Shown: in pieces, positions 19,392 through 31,028 of the stretch
How positions within the stretch are numbered: position 1 is the first letter of the stretch
How the letters are laid out: every line of letters begins with the position of its first letter
DNA from: Microbulbifer sp. THAF38
GTDB lineage: Bacteria > Pseudomonadota > Gammaproteobacteria > Pseudomonadales > Cellvibrionaceae
Assembly (NCBI RefSeq): GCF_009363535.1
Contig: NZ_CP045369.1
Location: 4,619,452-4,683,451 of the forward strand
Direction: 5' to 3'
Length of the DNA stretch: 64,000 nucleotides
Program-made: the position numbers and the translations under genes
Notes under the pieces: generated by a model
Databases searched by the model: none
The model's input: the letters and a program-made list of their open reading frames with translations, nothing else
What the model was told of the DNA's origin: nothing

Positions 19392-20339
19392 ATGGGAACC
19401 CGTACCAACCAGCTGACCTTGAAAGAACGATACCAGATTGAGGTCCTTAATGGGCAGAACTATTCAGCCCGAGCCATTGGACTACGCCTCAATAGATCCA
19501 ATAAGACTATCTCTCGTGAGCTTGGTCGTTACAGCCCTTACTGTGCCGAGAGTGCCCACCGTCAGGCACTGCAACGACGGCACGGAGCTATTAAACATAC
19601 CAAGCTCGACTTTGCCATGCAGGTACAAATCGACCACCAGCTGAAAAATGCAAGTCCTGAACAAATCGCTGGGCGAATGCAGCTTGAGAGGTGTGCGAAA
19701 ACGGTTAGTTGTTCAACAATTTACCGCTGGGTCAGTCGACTTAACTGGAGGTCACGTCTGCCAAGGAAAGCCAAACCTTATCAGAAACGGGCAGGTTCCG
19801 AGGCAGGCGTAAAGCTTATTCCAGAGCGCATAGATATTGATCAAAGACCTGCGATTGTCGATGAAAACACTGAGATCGGTCACTGGGAAGGCGATACAGT
19901 TTATGGTCAAGATGGCTATCTGGTGACACTGGTTGAACGAGTTTCCAAATTATTGCTCACTCGCAGAGTCCCAAATAAGAGCAAGAAAACAGTGAGCCGG
20001 GCGATCAAGCAAATGTTGAAGCCATATCAGGCCATCTGTAAAACCATCACCTTCGATAATGGAGGAGAATTTGCAGATCATCAATCGATTGCGCAGAAGC
20101 TAGGATGCAGAATATATTTTGCGAAACCTTACCACTCTTGGGAACGCGGGCTGAACGAAAACACTAATGGCCTTTTGAGGCGCTTCTTCCCAAAAGGAGT
20201 GGAAATTGGCAAGATACCAAAAAGCCGTATTGATGACGCAGTGTTTCGAATCAATACTCGACCTAGGAAAGTACTAAATTACTTGAGCCCGCTGGAATTT
20301 TTGGCGGGTAAACGTGTGTCACTTATGTTGGCAATCTAG
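19392..20339 (+). CDS. IS30-family transposase
   Basis: DDE transposase, 315 residues, complete. N-terminal helix-turn-helix (LTLKERYQIEVLNGQNYSAR; IGLRLNRSNKTISRELGRY) binds the terminal repeats. The catalytic triad region of IS30 is visible: IGHWEGDTVYG (first Asp, near residue 170), ITFDNGGEFADH (second Asp, near 223), and the Glu in HSWERGLNENTNGLLRRFFPKG (near 255). The C-terminus LAGKRVSLMLAI runs into the right inverted repeat. No frameshift or stop is present. Confidence 0.96.
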   Translation: MGTRTNQLTLKERYQIEVLNGQNYSARAIGLRLNRSNKTISRELGRYSPYCAESAHRQALQRRHGAIKHTKLDFAMQVQIDHQLKNASPEQIAGRMQLERCAKTVSCSTIYRWVSRLNWRSRLPRKAKPYQKRAGSEAGVKLIPERIDIDQRPAIVDENTEIGHWEGDTVYGQDGYLVTLVERVSKLLLTRRVPNKSKKTVSRAIKQMLKPYQAICKTITFDNGGEFADHQSIAQKLGCRIYFAKPYHSWERGLNENTNGLLRRFFPKGVEIGKIPKSRIDDAVFRINTRPRKVLNYLSPLEFLAGKRVSLMLAI

Positions 20340-22434: not shown

Positions 22435-22749
22435 ATGAGTCATAGATGCAAAAAGCCTCCATCGCTCTATACACAGAAGGAACTGGCAGAAGAGATCGGC
22501 GCGACGCGACGGGTCATTGCCTATTACGAGACCGAGAGCGAACACCTGCTGGTAGACCTGGCGCAGGCCCTAAAGGTCAGCACGGACGAGCTACTCGGTG
22601 TAAAGCCTGTGAAGAAGATCAAGCAGCCAGATTCCAGATTGCTGCGACGGATACAGCAGATTGAGAAGCTGGACGCCGCCACCAAGCGGCAGGTGATTCA
22701 GGTGATCGATACGTTTATCGAGAATGCCAAGCTGAAGAAGCAGGCTTGA
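22435..22749 (+). CDS. XRE-type helix-turn-helix regulator, probably N-terminally altered
   Basis: 104 residues. The DNA-binding helices are TQKELAEEIGATRRVIAYYE (residues about 14-33), followed by LAQALKVSTDELLGVKPVKK and a helical tail ending RQVIQVIDTFIENAKLKKQA. In relatives the domain begins with about ten more residues of helix 1, and a PPAD-like stretch normally follows TESEH; here helix 1 is replaced by MSHRCKKPPSL and the latter is missing. The gene may therefore be a decaying or non-functional copy. It ends in a strong terminator and neighbours an orphan RHS cassette. Confidence 0.75.
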   Translation: MSHRCKKPPSLYTQKELAEEIGATRRVIAYYETESEHLLVDLAQALKVSTDELLGVKPVKKIKQPDSRLLRRIQQIEKLDAATKRQVIQVIDTFIENAKLKKQA

Positions 22750-22763
22750 TAGGCTATAACGAC

Positions 22764-22795
22764 AAAACCCCGGCAGGGTAACCTGCCGGGGTTTT
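22764..22795. terminator. Strong terminator after the XRE gene
   Basis: Perfect 14-bp stem AAAACCCCGGCAGG - GTAA - CCTGCCGGGGTTTT. The A run and T run flank the stem, so it can end transcription in both directions: the XRE gene (+) and the small membrane-protein gene (-). Confidence 0.9.
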
Positions 22796-22822
22796 GATAA
22801 TTTTAATTCTTGGGAAAGAAGG

Positions 22823-23131
22823 TTATCTGCTGCGTTTCCCAAAGAATTTCTTAGGTGTTGGTTTTGCTATGAGGGGAGCAAAAAATAACCGTATTAATAA
22901 AACCAACACAATACAAACCGCCAATGGAACTACTGTTAAAAAGTAAAAAGAAACATATACCGATAATAGAACTGCTGCACCTTCCAAAGTCAGATAAAGC
23001 AATTTTGAAAATCCTGCAATCAGATAATTCGTGCCACAACTTAAACATCTAGCACCATCACCAGTCAGGCCAGCCAATGCAGCCATCAGTGGAATTTTAT
23101 ACTTCTTGCACGTTCTACAATATGCACCCAT
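22823..23131 (-). CDS. Small two-TM zinc-ribbon protein (cxxc_20_cxxc type), copy 2
   Basis: 102 residues. N-terminal C-R-T-C and C-L-S-C pairs (Cys5/Cys8 and Cys29/Cys32) are separated by exactly 20 residues, followed by two hydrophobic helices (about 44-64 and 66-86) and a basic tail (KPTPKKFFGKRSR). This is the layout of the TIGR04104-like cxxc_20_cxxc small membrane proteins. Same architecture as the product of 24099-24398; both begin C-x2-C-K-K and have Gly-Asp before the second pair. It lies 65 bases downstream of the orphan RHS tip on the same strand, the position of an immunity gene. That role is inference. Confidence 0.75.
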   Translation of the reverse strand: MGAYCRTCKKYKIPLMAALAGLTGDGARCLSCGTNYLIAGFSKLLYLTLEGAAVLLSVYVSFYFLTVVPLAVCIVLVLLIRLFFAPLIAKPTPKKFFGKRSR

Positions 23132-23196
23132 TTATAAAACCCACTAATTTTGACCAGAGAGAAAAGTGTTAGCAATATTACCCAACCTGCGTTCTG

Positions 23197-23697
23197 CTAA
23201 ACTCGTACCGCGGCATCTGAAATCTGCGGTAATATCGGTCGAGTATAATCAACAGTGGAAACATTCAAATTTAGTTCTGAAGCTAGGGATTCAATGCCAT
23301 AGTACACATCCCCCATACCAGCTACGATTCCAAGTGATGGCCCAGCCCCAGCACCACCTATGGCAACACCACTTACAAGTCCTGCAAGTTGACGACCAGC
23401 TATAGTCTCTCCACTTTCTAACAACTTATTACCACCCGTCTTAATTTGCTTTTGATTTGCATGTAACGCAATTCCCAATGCTTCCCCAAGCAGCATATGC
23501 TCCACTGTATTCGCCTGAACAGCTTCTCCTGCACCAGCTCCTCCTAGGATTCTGTTCTCATGCCGAGTGTATCTATACAAACCTCTAAAAAAGGAGCCCA
23601 CTCCACGGAAAAAGCTTCCGCCACCCTTTTGTGCAAAGACATCACCCCGAGGCCAGTCGTACCTTATCTTTCCATTTTCCCTAGCGCAATCAGCGAG
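23197..23697 (-). pseudogene. Orphan RHS C-terminal tip fragment
   Basis: An open frame of 166 codons with no good start (only an internal GTG at 23601), bounded upstream by a stop at 23698-23700. It begins with DCARENGKIRYDWPRGDVFA and QKGGGSFFRGVGSFFRG, then RYTRHENRILGG and Gly-rich hydrophobic stretches (AGRQLAGLVSGVAIGGAGAG). The AQKG and AGRQLA blocks are found in the same order in the tip of the large RHS protein. It therefore looks like a displaced tip left after recombination at the RHS locus. If the GTG is used, a 134-residue protein could still be made. Confidence 0.6.
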
Positions 23698-23862
23698 TTA
23701 ACAACCATTTTTCCCGGCGCCACTGGCTCTTCACCATTTTTTTGCCCCGACGCGAGTTTTACCTTAGCCGGATGTTTTTCCAGAGGCAACGGCGCTTTCT
23801 GTTTAGCCGCGCAGGCGCTGGTGCGCATGACCGCCGACCGGCGGCTAAATGCAGGGGCTGCC

Positions 23863-24021
23863 CCTACAGAGGAAAGCCCCATCCGCAACGAAGTGCTATT
23901 TAAGCGCTTCAAGCTACTGGAGACTTTTGATGATCAAGACAAGGACACGGTGATTCGGGTGATCGATGCGATTATCGCCCAGCGTCAGGTGGAACATGCT
24001 ATGCGGCCATTGGAGCGCTAA
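23863..24021 (+). pseudogene. C-terminal remnant of a second XRE-type regulator
   Basis: PTEESPIRNEVLFKRFKLLE followed by TFDDQDKDTVIRVIDAIIAQ and HAMRPLER is the C-terminal helical tail typical of XRE regulators that accompany RHS loci. The HTH domain is absent: the upstream frame encodes unrelated sequence antisense to the orphan RHS tip. Compare the tail of the gene at 22435-22749 (RQVIQVIDTFIE), which has the same D-x-x-x-K/R-x-x-V-I-x-V-I-D spacing. The segment 23698-23862 has no recognised gene. Confidence 0.55.
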
Positions 24022-24098
24022 CTACTGGTAGTTAGCGCTCTACTTTAGGCGCTCAGGATTCACCCCCCACCAATCATCCTGGTCAAATAAATTTATAC

Positions 24099-24398
24099 TC
24101 ATTTATTAGCTTTTGATTCTAATGGACTGATATACGCCAAAAGAAAAAAAACTATCACCATCAATATTAAGGTAATGACCAGGGAGTAAATAAAACCTAC
24201 AACCCCCCAGAAAATCAGAATAAAACTTGGCAATAATGTTGCCATCAATATAGAAACAAACAATCTCATTAGTGATGGGATAGCTGCTCTTCGCCCACAG
24301 TTAGGGCAATTCATTAGGCTATCCCCCAGAAGTTTTGCTTTGAGAGAAATTGTGAACGTTCTTTTTTTACAGTTTGGACACCGGCTAAATAGAGACAT
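24099..24398 (-). CDS. Small two-TM zinc-ribbon protein (cxxc_20_cxxc type), copy 1; candidate RHS immunity
   Basis: 99 residues from the ATG at 24398, whose AAGG ribosome binding site overlaps the stop codon of the RHS gene; only nine bases lie between stop and start, so translation is probably coupled. C-P-N-C (Cys7/Cys10) and C-P-N-C-G (Cys31/Cys34) are exactly 20 residues apart, followed by two long hydrophobic helices (about 44-66 and 69-90). Same layout as the protein at 22823-23131. Position directly behind a polymorphic toxin suggests an immunity protein in the inner membrane. That is inference; the cxxc_20_cxxc family has no established role. Confidence 0.78.
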   Translation of the reverse strand: MSLFSRCPNCKKRTFTISLKAKLLGDSLMNCPNCGRRAAIPSLMRLFVSILMATLLPSFILIFWGVVGFIYSLVITLILMVIVFFLLAYISPLESKANK

Positions 24399-24407
24399 CA
24401 ATCAACC

Positions 24408-27400
24408 TTATTTTCCTGAAATAGCACCCGACATTAAAGACACAGGATCTCTAACGCCTTGGTCAAATAAATTAAGCCCTCGACCAAAACCAGAGACGGT
24501 TGTAGCAGAACCTGTAAGCCCTCCCCACAATGTCCCTTTCTTTAAAAGCCCCCGAGGCCCATATCTCATCACTAAGCCAACCATGGCACCCTGTGCAAGT
24601 TGTCTGCCAGCAAAATAAGCTTTATTGCTTGAAATTGTATCGAATACAGCATTATTAACTTCCGAACGGAAGTTAACCATTTCTCCGTTAAGTTCTATCT
24701 CGGCGCTGGAATAGTATAAAGCTCCAGCAGCACTTAGCGCTTGGTCTGCAAGCAACGCATGCGCCTTCTCTTCAGGCCCAAAGTCACCATTCAAAGCTCG
24801 ATAATGCCAACGTACCCGAAATAAATCCTCGAAGAGCCCTTCAGCCCCACTTCGCATAAGTTGGAGGGTAGATGGCCCCTTTTGTGCAGCTCCACCGCCA
24901 CCGATACTACCAGAAATTAATGAGCGGGAATTTACACTTACCATTGCCGCACTATTAGCGTCTAAGCCTCCATAAAGCCTCGCACTATCAATTTTATCAG
25001 GATCTAAACTATCAAGGACATCTCGCAATGAACGTGTTCCTGCATGATGTACAAGACCGTATTTTACGCCATCAATAACCTCACTAGTTCTTGTTGGGCT
25101 TAGAAAGACTAAACCACCCTTACTTGGGGCTGGCGGGTTCCATCTTCCTGTAACGGTTACCTCTTCAACAGGGCCCGACTCTGCGGTATCGTCCTTCTCT
25201 TGCGGCCTCTCATCCCATGCCGCATAACCACTGGGATCAGTAAAACTCAACGGGTTATTAAACACATAGCTATAGCGGTTCCAGCTCTGGCTATAGGTCG
25301 GTGCCTGCACAATGGGATCGGGACTGAGAAAGCGGCCCAGTGTGGGGTCGTAGATACGCCCATTCATATGGATCAGGCCGGTTCTGTCCAGGTGCTCGTG
25401 GCCGGTGTAGCCGCGCTTGGTGGTGAGGCCTTGTACTGCCAGCAGTTCCTGTAGTTGTTGCTGGCCCAGGTCTCCGCTCCAGTCCCCTTGGCGGCGACTG
25501 CCGTCCGGGTTAAAGGCGAGATTTAAGATCTCCAGCCCGGCTTCATCGGTGATTTTCTCAACGGAGCCCAGATGGTCCCGGTGCAGGTATTGGTATTCGC
25601 CGCTGGTGCCGGTGAGGTCCCTAATAGCGATATGCTGAACACTGCTGGCCAGTGCGGTTTTTTCGATAGTGAGAATGCTGGCATCTGCGGGGATCTGTTC
25701 CTCGTAGCTGCCCACAATAAAGGCCTTTTCGGTTTTGAGCTGGCCACCTTCCATCCAGCTGCTTTCGCGATAGAAGCGCTGGCCATCCGGTCCATAGTGG
25801 AAGCGGTCTCTGGCGGTCGGTGTGCTATCGCTTTGACTGCTGCCCAGCACAATTTCCGTGGCCAGTTGGCGCGCATTCCAACTGATCCATTTGTCGTCAC
25901 CGCTGGCGGCGTCGTAGTGTTCAATAGCGCCGTTGGCATCGTAGTGCAGGCTGTGGGAGATGCCGTTAATGGTGACACTACTGACCGCATTGGGACCGGC
26001 ATTGCCGAACTCACCGTACTGGTAGCCGCTGACCTGGGTGTCGTTGCTGACACTGGAGGTCTTGGCGAGGATATTGCCGAGCTTGTCGTACTGGGTGCTG
26101 AGCACGCGGTCACCACCGACTTGCATGGTGGCGTGGCGCAGGCGATTGAGACCGTCGTAGCTAAAGTCTTCCTGCTTTTGCAGTGCCTGGGAGGCGTTGT
26201 AGGTGAGGCGACTTTGCAGGGTGCCGTTGGAGCGCCAGCGGTATTCGTTATTTTGTACCTGACCGCCACCAGTGTTGATAGTTTGCAGGCGCCCGGTATC
26301 GGGATCGTAAGTGCGATTGGTGATCAGGCCGTTGCCGTAGCTCTCCTGCTCTACCTGACCCCAGGCGTTGATGCTGTCAAAGGTTTGCAGGGAATTGTTG
26401 CCGGCTGCATCGCTGCTGAGGCTCTGCATATAACCGCGCGCGTTATAGTGGTAGTGGGCTTCGACATTGTTGGGGTAAACCACTTTGTTGGTGCGCCCGT
26501 AGCTATCGTAACCGTACTGGTGTTGGTAATTACGGCTGGCACCAGCGGCTAGTAACTGGGTGCGGATACTGTCCAGCTTGCTGTCGGAACGGTAGATGTA
26601 CTCCTCAAAAAACACCTGTGAGCCGTTTTCGGTATAACTGCGGCTAAGCAGGCCGCCCTTTGCATTCACGGCATCGTATTGCCATTGGGCCAGGCCCTGG
26701 GCATCTTGCTGCTCCAGCAGACGACCCAGCTGGTCGTACAGGTAGGTAATGCTCTGGCCTTTGTTATCGGTCTGCCGCTGCAGCTCGCCAAAGGCGTTGT
26801 AACTACTGGAGACGGAGCCCAGGTTGGCATCGGTCATGCTGGTGCGGAAGCCGGCATAGTCGAAGACAAAACTGGATTCGATATTGCGGCTGCCCCCGTT
26901 AACCAACACGGTTTTTGGTAAGCCACTGCCGTAGTAGGTGTACTCTGTCGTTACCGCTTCGCCGGTGGCGTCATCGATCGTGCGCGCCAGGTCGCCATTT
27001 AGGTCGTAGTAGCTCTCCTGCACCTGGGTGTTGTTACCACTCCCCCCCACTACCGATTCCGTTACGCTGACTTTAACCTGCTTGCCACTGTTGCCCGTCG
27101 CTACGCTGTAATCAATATCCACCGTGCCGCCACCGGCTTTCTCTATATAGTCGAGGCGGTTACGCAAGTCATATTTGTAATTGGTAATCGGTTTGTAACC
27201 ATCGACCGCTGCGTTACCTTGGGCAAAGAAAGGGGCCGTCTCCATATTAAGCCGCCCGAGAGGATCGTACTTGTATTCGCGGCGGGAGACGTTGTTACCG
27301 AAGAAATCCTCTACATCCTGCTGTACCAAACGGCCCAGTTGGTCGTAATAGTATTCCGAGGTGGGGGTAATTGCCGAGCTGGTCTGTACCCAGTAAGGCA

Positions 27401-30400
27401 CTTCGATACTGTCAACAACGGGGCAATTAGCGAAACAGAAGTTGTACTGGGTGCTGAATGCCACTCCATCGGCATTGGTGCTGCTAATCTCGCGGCCAAA
27501 AGGATCGTATTGAATACTGCTGGACTGGAGATTCGCATCGGTCACCTGAGTGATGCTGCCAAAGCGGTGGTCGTAGTCCATGGTAATGGTGTGACCCAAG
27601 ATATTACTCAGGCTAGTCGGGTAGCGCCGATCGGAGAAGGCGCCGTTCACCTGGGTGCTGCGCGTTTGCGTGCTAGAGCCATTAATTGTGGCATCGACCT
27701 TGCCGGTGGCGCTTTCACTGGTCACATTGCCGTAGTCATCGTAATCATAGGTGACCACCATCTGGTATTTGGCATCACCGGGATACTGGGTAGCCGTATG
27801 CACCTTATTCGTGTTGCCATAAGGGGTCATGGCGCTACTGGACTGTTGATCTGGGCTGCCGCTGGTATCGCCACTAAAGTGACGCTGTTCCTGGGCACTG
27901 GGGAAGCCGATCAGCCAATTGCCGCTGACGCGGTTTTCCAGCAGCGTGGTGCTCTCCACACTGCGCTGGGTATCGCCGTAATTACTGGCCGGCAGCACCT
28001 CACCCCAAATACTCTGGGAGTCGTTGATCTGGGCAGTTTTCATTACACGGCTGGTACTTACACTACCGCTTAACAGATCACCCGCGTCGCCATAAGAGAT
28101 AGCCTGGGGTGCGTTATCGTTGACTATATACCCAAGTGTTTGCCCTCCCTCTAACTGGGTGTCCAAGCTTTGCGCCATATAGGGGTAGTAGGTCTTGCTA
28201 TCACCGGCATGGAGCTCAAGGGCATCGTAACTAAAGCGCTGGTTAGTGAGCAGTTCGCCAAACTGATAGTTGTTAAAATACTGAACCTGCCGCGCCACCT
28301 TGCCAAAGTAAGGGAAGTCCTGACGGAACTGGCGGTAGGTGACGATATTGGCTTCGGGATCGTAAATGCGCTGGGCGTGATAACCGAGGAAGCCCCAGCC
28401 TTTGTCACTGCTCAGGCCGACACCCTGATAAGCGTACTTGGTAGTATGCCAGCCTAGCCTGTAGCCGTTGGAGCGTTCCACCTTGGTCACTACCGTGCGG
28501 TAATCCCCGTTTACTGCCCGGCTGGTAGGGCTTGTGTCGGGAATAGTCACCATCGAACCAAAGAGGGTGGTGCCTTCATCAAAGCGACCGACTTCCTCTT
28601 CGCCGGGGTTATCGGAGATACGTTCCAGCGTAAATTTGGTTTGGGCGCCGAGGCCATTGGTGACCGTTTCAATGCCGGTTTCAAAGTCATCCGGGTTGGC
28701 AGAGTCGGTAAATTTCCAAGTAAATTCCAGCGGTTTCAGGCACTGACGACCGGTACCATTTTCATCATAAGCACACAGCTGTACCTGCTTGAGGCGGCGA
28801 TAATGGGCCTGCTCGGGATCGGCGGGCTCCTCTTCGGAGATCAGCTTGTATTCCCGCTGCAGTTTGCCGTCCAAGTGCACGCGGATATGGTGCAACAGCA
28901 CCAGCTGTTCCTGCTGGATTTCCTGCAGGGGCACTGGCGGTGCATCGGTACGGGTACCGTACTGGAATTCTATTTTTGCATCGCCCTGGTTGCCGTAGGT
29001 AATTTCCAGGGGATAGTTAATACCCTCGATAAGATCGCGATGATATTTATAGGCCATCGTATTGCCGAAGGCATCGGTAACTTTATTCAGGCTCCAGGCA
29101 AAGTGCGAAGTATCTTCCCCTCGCAGGCTACTATCCGCCGTTGCTCCATACTCATTGATTGAGCCATTGGGGTTTTTGACTTTGAACCAGATCTTACCGG
29201 CACTATTTTTCTGTAACTCAATCAGGCGGAAGCTATCGCGCAAGGTGCGATACTGGGCGCCCCCTTGCCAGTGAGTACCAGAGGCCAAAACTAAAGGCTC
29301 ACCATCCAAACACAGTGAATCCGCGTCAGTCAGTCGAACTCTATCGCTATTGGGCCTATTCACCACACAGCGGCGAATACTGCTCAACCCGCCCAATCGC
29401 CAACCATAACCGAGGGTATCTTCCGGCAGGGCTTGCGTCATACGCTTCTGGAAACGGGCACTGGTGTAATGCAGGGATAAATTGGGTTGCAAGCCATTGA
29501 CGCCGGGCGCCGGCTGCAGGGGGACATTAATAATGGCATTACCGGTGGCACTGACATCGGCACTATATGGCAAGGTGCCCGGTGTAGTTGCTTGCTCGGT
29601 GGTGACCGCTGGAGCTTCGTCTGTATTGGCCAGACTATGCACTTTGATCCAGGGGCTTAGTACCGAAGCACAATTATCCGCAAAATCAATACAGGCAGTC
29701 AGCTTATATTGGTAGGTACCAGGTTGGCTGCCGCCATCGAAGAAACTGGTTCCAGTGGTGCTGGCTAAGACCGTTAGCCAGCAGTTACCATCAGATTTTT
29801 CCGTACACCCACTTTCATCTTCTCCCTTACGAATGCGCTCCAGTTTATAGACACTCGCCCCAACATCTTTCCAGGTGATGGTTTGGTCCAGTTTAAAAAA
29901 CTGCGTGGGATGATTATCAGAAAACTCAGGCTCTGGCGGTGTGGGGGGGCTCAATCGTTTTGTTGTGGACCAGGGGCCACAGCCGGAACGGTTACAAGCC
30001 CTAACCCGAAATTCATAGTCGCTCGCAGTGATATCTTTGCCTGTGGTGGCCTTACTGATATTCACTAATATAGAGGTGGGCTTAGTGGTAAAAACATCAC
30101 TAAAACCACTGCCGTTTACATTCCATTCCAGGTCATAGTTAAGCACCGGATCGGAGGGATCAGGATTACCGACAGAATTCCACTTTAGTTGGAAACTAGG
30201 CCCTGGTAGCGTACTGCCACCCGGCTCCTGCCAGCCACTAACCTGGCCGGGGTAATGTTTAACATAGAGGGTGGAAGAGTAGCGCCAGCCGCTGTATTGA
30301 TAAAGGCTTCCGGCCTTACCATAGGCGCGTACTCGATATCGATACTTGCCGGTGGGCATAGTGCCCGTTGTGGTGGGTAACGATCTGCTTCGAGTGCCGC

Positions 30401-30971
30401 TACTTACTTTGGGACAGCTGCTCTCAGATTGCCAGCTGCCATTAGTTTCCTGACACCACTGGTAGCCAGAGGCTGCAGGTCCTCCGCTGGGAGCACCCCA
30501 ATTAATTGTATATTTTCCATTGGTATCAGTACTTCCGCTCTCTACAGAAGAAAACGTTAGCGATGAGGGCGTATTGGGTTTAAGTGCAACATTAACATCA
30601 TGATAACCTGTCACATATTTTTCAAAATCCCACTCTTCACAACGCCCACTCAACCTATTCCAAAATAAACAAATCTTAAACCAGGCGGTATAACTATAAG
30701 ACCCAGTGGATGAAACAGTAATCGACTTACTGCTTACAGTATTCCCTATGTCCCCGATATAAATATCCCTAACTTTCCTCCCATCCTTATTCTCAGTAAT
30801 GTAATGAACTACCCCCTGCCAAGTCAGAGTAAATTTTCCATCGGAATCTGTTGAAGGTCCGGTTAGAGTGTCTATACCATTTAAGGGAGCTGAGATACTT
30901 ACATTTGGTACAAAAGTAAAAATACCAGCTATAAAAACCAGTAAAAAATAAGCAGTAAGTCTAAAGCGCAT
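24408..30971 (-). CDS. RHS/YD-repeat polymorphic toxin protein, secreted
   Basis: About 2187 residues. The ATG at 30971 follows AAGGTGG and gives a Sec signal peptide (MRFRLTAYFLLVFIAGIFTF, ending near VSISA). Residues about 100-470 contain fibronectin-III-like repeats (GKYRYRVRAYGKAGS, SDYEFRVRACNRSGCGPW). From about 490 a SpvB/TcdB-type start (SADVSATGNAIINVPLQPA) leads into many YD repeats (YDYDDYGNVTSE, YYDQLGRLVQQD). The RHS core ends with NRYSYVFNNPLSFTDPSGY near residue 1916. The last 270 residues are a distinct tip with an EEVTVTGRW linker, then Gly-rich hydrophobic segments ending FGRGLNLFDQGVRDP. The core is G/C-rich while the tip and N-terminus are A/T-rich. The tip activity is not recognised. 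Confidence 0.9.
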   Translation of the reverse strand: MRFRLTAYFLLVFIAGIFTFVPNVSISAPLNGIDTLTGPSTDSDGKFTLTWQGVVHYITENKDGRKVRDIYIGDIGNTVSSKSITVSSTGSYSYTAWFKICLFWNRLSGRCEEWDFEKYVTGYHDVNVALKPNTPSSLTFSSVESGSTDTNGKYTINWGAPSGGPAASGYQWCQETNGSWQSESSCPKVSSGTRSRSLPTTTGTMPTGKYRYRVRAYGKAGSLYQYSGWRYSSTLYVKHYPGQVSGWQEPGGSTLPGPSFQLKWNSVGNPDPSDPVLNYDLEWNVNGSGFSDVFTTKPTSILVNISKATTGKDITASDYEFRVRACNRSGCGPWSTTKRLSPPTPPEPEFSDNHPTQFFKLDQTITWKDVGASVYKLERIRKGEDESGCTEKSDGNCWLTVLASTTGTSFFDGGSQPGTYQYKLTACIDFADNCASVLSPWIKVHSLANTDEAPAVTTEQATTPGTLPYSADVSATGNAIINVPLQPAPGVNGLQPNLSLHYTSARFQKRMTQALPEDTLGYGWRLGGLSSIRRCVVNRPNSDRVRLTDADSLCLDGEPLVLASGTHWQGGAQYRTLRDSFRLIELQKNSAGKIWFKVKNPNGSINEYGATADSSLRGEDTSHFAWSLNKVTDAFGNTMAYKYHRDLIEGINYPLEITYGNQGDAKIEFQYGTRTDAPPVPLQEIQQEQLVLLHHIRVHLDGKLQREYKLISEEEPADPEQAHYRRLKQVQLCAYDENGTGRQCLKPLEFTWKFTDSANPDDFETGIETVTNGLGAQTKFTLERISDNPGEEEVGRFDEGTTLFGSMVTIPDTSPTSRAVNGDYRTVVTKVERSNGYRLGWHTTKYAYQGVGLSSDKGWGFLGYHAQRIYDPEANIVTYRQFRQDFPYFGKVARQVQYFNNYQFGELLTNQRFSYDALELHAGDSKTYYPYMAQSLDTQLEGGQTLGYIVNDNAPQAISYGDAGDLLSGSVSTSRVMKTAQINDSQSIWGEVLPASNYGDTQRSVESTTLLENRVSGNWLIGFPSAQEQRHFSGDTSGSPDQQSSSAMTPYGNTNKVHTATQYPGDAKYQMVVTYDYDDYGNVTSESATGKVDATINGSSTQTRSTQVNGAFSDRRYPTSLSNILGHTITMDYDHRFGSITQVTDANLQSSSIQYDPFGREISSTNADGVAFSTQYNFCFANCPVVDSIEVPYWVQTSSAITPTSEYYYDQLGRLVQQDVEDFFGNNVSRREYKYDPLGRLNMETAPFFAQGNAAVDGYKPITNYKYDLRNRLDYIEKAGGGTVDIDYSVATGNSGKQVKVSVTESVVGGSGNNTQVQESYYDLNGDLARTIDDATGEAVTTEYTYYGSGLPKTVLVNGGSRNIESSFVFDYAGFRTSMTDANLGSVSSSYNAFGELQRQTDNKGQSITYLYDQLGRLLEQQDAQGLAQWQYDAVNAKGGLLSRSYTENGSQVFFEEYIYRSDSKLDSIRTQLLAAGASRNYQHQYGYDSYGRTNKVVYPNNVEAHYHYNARGYMQSLSSDAAGNNSLQTFDSINAWGQVEQESYGNGLITNRTYDPDTGRLQTINTGGGQVQNNEYRWRSNGTLQSRLTYNASQALQKQEDFSYDGLNRLRHATMQVGGDRVLSTQYDKLGNILAKTSSVSNDTQVSGYQYGEFGNAGPNAVSSVTINGISHSLHYDANGAIEHYDAASGDDKWISWNARQLATEIVLGSSQSDSTPTARDRFHYGPDGQRFYRESSWMEGGQLKTEKAFIVGSYEEQIPADASILTIEKTALASSVQHIAIRDLTGTSGEYQYLHRDHLGSVEKITDEAGLEILNLAFNPDGSRRQGDWSGDLGQQQLQELLAVQGLTTKRGYTGHEHLDRTGLIHMNGRIYDPTLGRFLSPDPIVQAPTYSQSWNRYSYVFNNPLSFTDPSGYAAWDERPQEKDDTAESGPVEEVTVTGRWNPPAPSKGGLVFLSPTRTSEVIDGVKYGLVHHAGTRSLRDVLDSLDPDKIDSARLYGGLDANSAAMVSVNSRSLISGSIGGGGAAQKGPSTLQLMRSGAEGLFEDLFRVRWHYRALNGDFGPEEKAHALLADQALSAAGALYYSSAEIELNGEMVNFRSEVNNAVFDTISSNKAYFAGRQLAQGAMVGLVMRYGPRGLLKKGTLWGGLTGSATTVSGFGRGLNLFDQGVRDPVSLMSGAISGK

Positions 30972-30994
30972 CCGTTCACCCACCTTAATTGGTA

Positions 30995-31028
30995 CCAAAA
31001 AACCAAAAAACCAAAAAACCAAAAAACC
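30995..31028 (-). repeat. Octanucleotide tandem repeat (GGTTTTTT)x4 upstream of the RHS gene
   Basis: On the plus strand CCAAAAAA is repeated exactly four times (30995-31026) plus CC. It begins 24 bases upstream of the RHS start codon, just before the ribosome binding site. The units are identical, and the length per unit (8) is not a multiple of three. Such tracts are prone to slipped-strand copy-number change, so expression of the RHS gene may be phase-variable through leader or promoter spacing. Confidence 0.85.

Follow-up and report, generated by a model that had tools for sequence, protein, structure and literature searches.

Small zinc-ribbon membrane proteins behind RHS tips in Microbulbifer: a candidate family of toxin-immunity pairs

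What is the role of two small membrane proteins that share one cysteine layout and stand behind two RHS tip domains? The question is raised by a stretch of 64,000 nucleotides of Microbulbifer sp. THAF38 (contig NZ_CP045369.1, positions 4,619,452 to 4,683,451), here called the window. One tip, T1, closes an RHS protein and is followed by the gene imm1; the other, T2, is an orphan followed by imm2 (Table 1). A reading made from the sequence alone had proposed that the small proteins are immunities to membrane-active toxins. Our comparisons with related genomes make it probable that each tip and the gene behind it form a cognate toxin-immunity pair, present in the window in two diverged versions (carrier and orphan), with a membrane-acting mechanism. 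Sequence comparison lends good support to a candidate RHS toxin-immunity family of unusual immunity architecture, and for its members we infer toxicity, a membrane target, the immunity role, the topology and the swapping of tips.

The arrangement proposed earlier is borne out by the coordinates of the frames. The first ATG of imm1 (24398) lies 9 bases past the RHS stop, and its product contains two C-x2-C pairs separated by exactly 20 residues, with KK following the first of them, and two hydrophobic segments; imm2 repeats all these features behind the orphan tip. The RHS protein itself has RHS repeats and an RHS-associated core in front of a variable C-terminus, the build of a polymorphic toxin. 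Pfam and NCBIfam place fn3 (residues 276-353), SpvB (491-674), RHS repeats and the RHS core (1865-1932) in it, with T1 terminal; TIGR03696 scores 68 bits (cut-off 32.5) and RHS_repeat 52 bits. Its N-terminus, judged by eye, is a hydrophobic export-type leader resembling a signal peptide.

Do relatives of the tips keep the ribbon partner? When 144 genomes of the family were searched with T1, seven places matched: the own one, G106, G073, G141, G093, G086 and L024, the last left out because it matches mainly the pre-tip stretch. A CxxC frame is present behind all five other tips recruited in this way, of which a search with imm1 retrieves just three (partners in G106, G073 and G141). T2 found twelve places, namely its own, G023 and ten that match only or mainly the leader and were kept as a control. 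In G023 (E 4.6e-5) the tip ends an RHS frame of 3727 residues, and a CxxC gene comes next in the same frame. Profile A6, made from the T1 and T2 sets, added G103, G105 and G108, three further matches (G002, G142, G046) being left out as judged non-RHS loci. G103 (E 4.2e-6) has a 2129-residue RHS protein with a family tip and the partner, and the partner is also present at the weaker tip match of G105 (E 0.013). Altogether, an adjoining CxxC partner accompanies nine of nine tips at E<=0.001, two of them the window's own, and 10 of 11 when two weaker tips are included. Homologous tips followed by unrelated genes had been named as the observation that would speak against the pairing; what was found is a CxxC-x19-21-CxxC membrane protein behind every recruited tip but that of G108.

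The partner goes with the tip both on RHS genes (window, G073, G086, G023, G103) and on orphans (window T2, G106, G093 and G141, the last a broken orphan). Partner genes either slightly overlap the tip or start up to 65 bases past it. In G073 the first RHS gene has another tip, and a displaced RHS gene with the same pre-tip sequence has a T1-type tip. Together with orphan T2, this suggests that different tips are exchanged on one conserved carrier and that displaced ones persist as orphans, as in polymorphic toxins. T1 is 71% identical to the tip of G106, 49% to G073, 28% to G093, 26% to G086 and 80% to protein P0002, and T2 is 76-83% identical to proteins P0003-P0005; protein searches with tips gave 2, 4 and 8 matches, own ones counted. 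The T1-only profile A3 found only the own genome among 341 genomes of the order, and in wider genome contigs only M. variabilis, on the same contig as G106. Profile A7 gave seven non-own places at E<=0.05 in 350 genomes of the class; none of the six inspected was an RHS tip with partner, and the one place below 0.001 (G763) contains two stops. Neither tip matched in a plasmid search, and T2, the only tip searched against viral contigs, had no match there.

The pairing was further weighed against RHS genes in general by a census of the genus. Of 48 genomes, 41 have RHS cores; 143 cores were taken among those listed and 136 used, seven being left out because the piece after the core start is shorter than 120 residues. 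Among these listed cores, a CxxC frame follows five of 136, that is four of five family tips and one of 131 others (Fisher 1.8e-6, or 4.0e-5 without the window RHS gene), where all five family tips were already in profile A7 used to call them and the next best tip has E 0.088. Seven listed rows were first omitted; two run off the contig, and the five fetched later, which stand outside the 136, have no CxxC partner (0/5). The own genome has seven RHS cores above cut-off, and none of its six other RHS genes has a CxxC follower. Likewise, where an orphan cassette combines a T2-type leader with another tip, no CxxC frame lies within 600 bases past the tip end (0/10). The exception in the census (L182 598-1215, in G103) is an unrelated tip; it contains a hydrophobic stretch rich in Gly (8 Gly in 24) and has a CxxC-x19-CxxC follower. 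L010, in another genus, is a further unrelated tip with a CxxC partner.

These counts bear on the idea that ribbon proteins are a widespread type of small protein, found near RHS genes by chance or by local duplication. It draws on the fact that 11 of the 16 imm1 matches in the family search adjoin no RHS gene and no family tip, and on TIGR04104 loci away from RHS genes (see below). The presence of the partner at one of 131 other tips against 10 of 11 family tips, at the close spacing given above, makes it barely credible, and chance pairing was rejected on the census. Recent duplication of one cassette was rejected too, since the window partners are only 27% identical and the tips do not align significantly.

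Among the 153 window frames of 80-140 residues, CxxC-x20-CxxC occurs in imm1 and imm2 only, and any spacing of 17-25 occurs in three; shuffling imm1 and imm2 produced CxxC-x17-25-CxxC in 32 and 156 of 200000 sequences. BLASTP aligns the two at E 2e-4. The hydrophobic segments are 46-64 and 69-87 in imm1 (mean hydropathy 2.3 and 3.0) and 37-55 and 62-80 in imm2 (1.5 and 2.9). The name cxxc_20_cxxc given to them earlier is right as to the spacing and the best-matching family, TIGR04104 being the top NCBIfam match of both, but not as to formal membership: imm1 (36.4 bits, E 5e-9) and imm2 (15.4 bits, E 0.018) both stay below its curated cut-off of 45 bits. Its profile matches nine of ten members of partner alignment A2 at E<=1, and the match spans both the ribbon and the membrane part. 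The CxxC pairs are 19-21 residues apart among 12 aligned partners, which were themselves chosen by the CxxC pattern, and at least two hydrophobic segments were predicted from hydropathy in all eight partners tested.

A structure model of imm1 based on the 12 aligned partners (mean predicted local distance difference test score, pLDDT, 79; predicted template modelling score, pTM, 0.59) has short strands at both CxxC pairs, a short helix between them, and 22-residue helices at 42-63 and 69-90. Imm1 may thus be described as a candidate small ribbon mounted on a membrane hairpin. Two predicted transmembrane (TM) helices in a small toxin-adjacent protein are also what characterises two-TM immunities of the Imm-CdiI and Imm17 kind. 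Comparison of the model with solved structures gave 17 matches at E<=10 and none at 0.001 (best E 3.2), and PADLOC gave no match for imm1, imm2 or the orphan tip. NCBIfam describes TIGR04104 merely as a putative zinc finger protein, and no mention of TIGR04104 or cxxc_20_cxxc was found in the open PubMed Central (PMC) literature, outside of which most subscription papers and preprints lie.

The two tips share the AGRQLA block, as had been noticed. They had also been called Gly-rich and hydrophobic; the first holds (the final 75 residues contain 15 and 12 Gly), and the second suits T2 (best 19-residue window 1.53) better than T1, in which no window reaches 1.0. BLASTP finds no significant alignment between them (E 0.16), and profile-profile comparison relates them at E 5e-4 with probability 32% over 73 columns. 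A pattern common to the tips comprises N-terminal F..L.RY..H...G..G.E, incomplete in some members, and C-terminal AGR, GAG and AG.G. On these sequence grounds a common origin of T1 and T2 is likely, short of being demonstrated. A known tip domain was rejected: nothing exceeded the cut-off within the tip in Pfam (both tips) or NCBIfam (T2 and the whole RHS protein). O-antigen polymerase, matched weakly (E 0.002, below its cut-off) by one of 12 members, was rejected as well.

The tip could instead be an enzyme whose substrate, a lipid or a lipid-linked precursor, belongs to the membrane or envelope, in a real toxin-immunity pair whose partner guards the membrane. In T1-type tips the N-terminal half is conserved and contains charged and His residues (H11 and GPE are invariant in A3), and residues 11-70 of the T1 model (block-mean pLDDT 61-74) form predicted helices and a beta hairpin. 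Lipocone toxins likewise have TM or lipoprotein immunities (PMC12419801; this and the other papers are cited from individual passages). We nevertheless regard an enzyme as unlikely, given that no family matches above cut-off, that sequence matching of the tips to solved structures stops at E 0.5, and that the columns invariant across 12 tips, R82 and G122, both lie in the C-terminal half, whereas the N-terminal H and GPE are missing from some members.

Action at the membrane is suggested by the ribbon-and-hairpin build of the partner and by the census. Where a tip contains an uncharged hydrophobic stretch, the follower has at least two TM segments in 12 of 22 cases, against 13 of 114 for the remaining tips (p 2.3e-5), and the link persists over 48 settings (p 1.9e-6 to 2.3e-3). 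An uncharged hydrophobic stretch is present in the L182 tip as well. Toxins that depolarise membranes almost always have a polytopic membrane protein as immunity (PMC12744356). Membrane insertion by the tips is favoured but unproven. In a distant genome (L059 589-1809), a CxxC membrane protein comes directly after a 300-residue frame that ends in a long hydrophobic stretch, and neither has a Pfam match.

Tips and partners also diverge together. Their similarities correlate over seven pairs (Mantel r 0.92, 3 of 5040 permutations) and remain correlated without the near-duplicate G086 (r 0.94, 3 of 720 permutations, Spearman 0.57). The window and G106 tips are 71% identical and their partners 43-46%, so that in this pair the partner diverges faster than the tip. 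Immunities to ionophores of contact-dependent inhibition (CDI) are reported to be highly polymorphic (PMC11630599). Tight linkage and co-divergence would look identical if the partner were a tip-specific chaperone or export adaptor holding the tip at the membrane before secretion. The partner is, however, also kept by orphan tips that lack their own carrier gene (window T2, G106, G093), and it stands downstream of the tip, the usual position of an immunity gene; we consider a chaperone very unlikely.

Several observations weigh against cognate, membrane-acting pairs. The rank correlation over the seven pairs is weaker (Spearman 0.42), and shared descent of whole cassettes could be the source of the correlation. 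G108, a 2385-residue RHS protein with a weak tip match (E 0.0048), is followed by a membrane protein of at most 100 residues without CxxC; either the ribbon is therefore not essential or the G108 tip is not a member, and this ribbonless protein (L093 1814-2113) is possibly a replacement immunity. At E<=0.001 the profile built on T1 alone misses T2 in the own genome. Confidence in the T1 model is low (pLDDT 50.9, pTM 0.38), with residues 91-142 below 40 by block. Like T1, the G106 tip has no 19-residue window of hydropathy 1.0, and that of G073 reaches 1.23. The link between hydrophobic tips and multi-TM followers is equally strong without the Gly requirement, so it does not single out Gly. Gly-zipper motifs clearly exceed shuffles in one of 12 tips (P0003; fraction <0.05), and five of 12 lack a GxxxGxxxG-type motif in the last 80 residues, unlike Gly-zipper pore formers. 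The imm1 and TIGR04104 matches away from RHS genes belong here too.

If the tips and partners are cognate pairs, they might work as follows. The RHS shell would export the tip from the producer cell. Once released, the Gly-rich tip would insert into or perturb the inner membrane of a competitor, probably depolarising it. In the producer, the partner would be anchored in the inner membrane by its two-helix hairpin, with zinc ribbon and Lys/Arg-rich flanks in the cytoplasm, and would bind the matching tip in or at the membrane and so block it. Orphan cassettes would retain old immunities and act as spare tips, swappable through near-identical spacers.

Not all ribbon proteins are tied to RHS genes. 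At none of the TIGR04104 loci (24 elsewhere in the class plus a second copy in the own genome) did tblastn detect RHS-like DNA within the locus of about 3 kb; the ribbon-protein type thus extends beyond the RHS pair. Genes for ribbon/two-TM proteins of a related subgroup stand beside repeats of about 55-233 bases, resembling integron cassettes, in L012 and L017 (also L008); a repeat test found them in L012 and L017 and not in L011. One possibility, which we hold to be doubtful but worth stating, is that zinc-ribbon/two-TM proteins are general inner-membrane immunities against membrane-active toxins with a functional cytoplasmic ribbon, the non-RHS copies, including those in integron-like arrays, being an orphan immunity stockpile against neighbours.

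The spacer between the two cassettes is itself conserved. It extends over 0.4 kb from imm1 to T2, the orphan frame running from 23700 to the stop at 23197 without internal stop, and consists of two blocks, A and B. Block B is about 89-96% identical over 140-246 bases ahead of other orphan tips in G093, G101, G106, G107, G108 and G092, further matches being weaker (72-79%). Block A copies are 91-96% identical over 98-178 bases in G106, G093, G107, G092 and G108, and 86-90% in others; in G106 (L019) block A lies ~0.45 kb downstream of the imm1 relative. The two-block spacer (window 23560-24060) recurs at Microbulbifer RHS tip cassettes (L070, L068, L019, L027, L029, L034), and the tips behind the conserved leader differ. 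Judging from these alignments, the spacer may be a recombination site, and the pattern fits tip swapping via recombination in the flanks.

Table 1. Features of the RHS locus and the orphan cassette (positions within the window)
Feature	Position	Strand	Description
RHS protein	24408..31022	-	2204 aa from listed TTG; frame reading
Tip T1	24411..24848	-	final 146 residues of the RHS protein; YFAGRQLA motif, Gly-rich C-terminus; candidate toxin domain
imm1	24099..24401	-	100-aa frame; CxxC-x20-CxxC ribbon and two-helix hairpin; candidate immunity to T1
Block A	23869..24046 (HTH remnant 23878-24021)	+	C-terminal remnant of RstR-like helix-turn-helix (HTH) gene, convergent to imm1
Block B	23624..23865	-	leader DNA ahead of orphan tip, ends LADCARENGK
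Orphan tip T2	23197..23700	-	open frame: leader LADCARENGKIRYDWPRGDVFAQKG, then tip with IAGRQLA; RHS core absent
imm2	22823..23131	-	102 aa, imm1-like layout; candidate immunity to T2; starts 65 bases past T2 stop
RstR-like HTH gene	22435..22749	+	convergent to imm2, beyond orphan cassette; HTH_3; NF041951 42.9 bits (cut-off 80)

Homologues of the RstR-like HTH gene are also present in the RHS loci L190, L036, L206, L186 and L201. Between the HTH gene and imm2, a 34-base inverted repeat (22763-22796, 94%) resembles a terminator, and about 2.5 kb from imm2 there is a transposase gene with rve and HTH_38 domains (19392-20339), which we take to be IS30-like. In G092 (G092:C1:2364438-2377815; L192-L195, L201), a 2176-residue RHS frame and four displaced RHS-core frames stand in tandem, followed by an orphan tip. 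The own genome has three VipB (PF05943) matches, so a type VI system is likely.

These pairs offer a testable function for a family of small proteins known in NCBIfam only by cysteine spacing, and they define an RHS tip family that passed no Pfam or NCBIfam cut-off. Should the ribbon prove important, the immunity would be built as a metal-bound cytoplasmic head on a membrane hairpin, an architecture without relative among solved folds and one that the PMC passages compared do not describe for immunities. A hydrophobic tip with a multi-TM follower is also a possible simple rule for finding more membrane-active RHS toxins.

How do the pairs compare with known systems? The partners resemble Imm-CdiI and Imm17, named as two-TM immunities of polymorphic toxins by Zhang et al. 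2012 (PMC3482391) and similarly small; they differ in that the passages mention no CxxC ribbon, and the partners have no such Pfam match. Within the open PMC literature, Rhs, toxin, zinc ribbon and immunity protein were found together only in PMC12419801, where, in the passage concerned, the protein that bears the zinc ribbon has a single TM and belongs to the two-gene Skillet-2 system; it is not an RHS immunity. The TelE and EsxX Gly-zipper toxins of type VII secretion (PMC10434224, PMC12744356) have a Gly-rich C-terminus that is membrane-active, but their carrier is LXG and, according to these passages, soluble DUF5085 proteins neutralise cytoplasmic TelE and EsxX; tips of the window type differ further, their Gly-zipper motifs being mostly not above composition. 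The CdiA-CT/CdiI systems of the EC93 group, whose ionophores dissipate the membrane potential (PMC11630599), share a polymorphic C-terminal toxin, a hydrophobic membrane immunity and fast-diverging, cognate-specific immunities. This likeness is one of description; the carrier there is CdiA, the toxin is a predicted five-helix bundle and the paper leaves zinc unmentioned. Tse5/Tsi5 of Pseudomonas aeruginosa share the RHS shell, a C-terminal tip of ~150 residues and a cognate immunity; Tse5 is a pore-forming Rhs toxin with a membrane-acting tip, delivered by the type VI secretion system (T6SS) (PMC10684867). The window carrier differs from it in having fn3 and SpvB, in the lack of any T6SS adaptor domain detected by Pfam scan, and in a tip without sequence match to solved structures.

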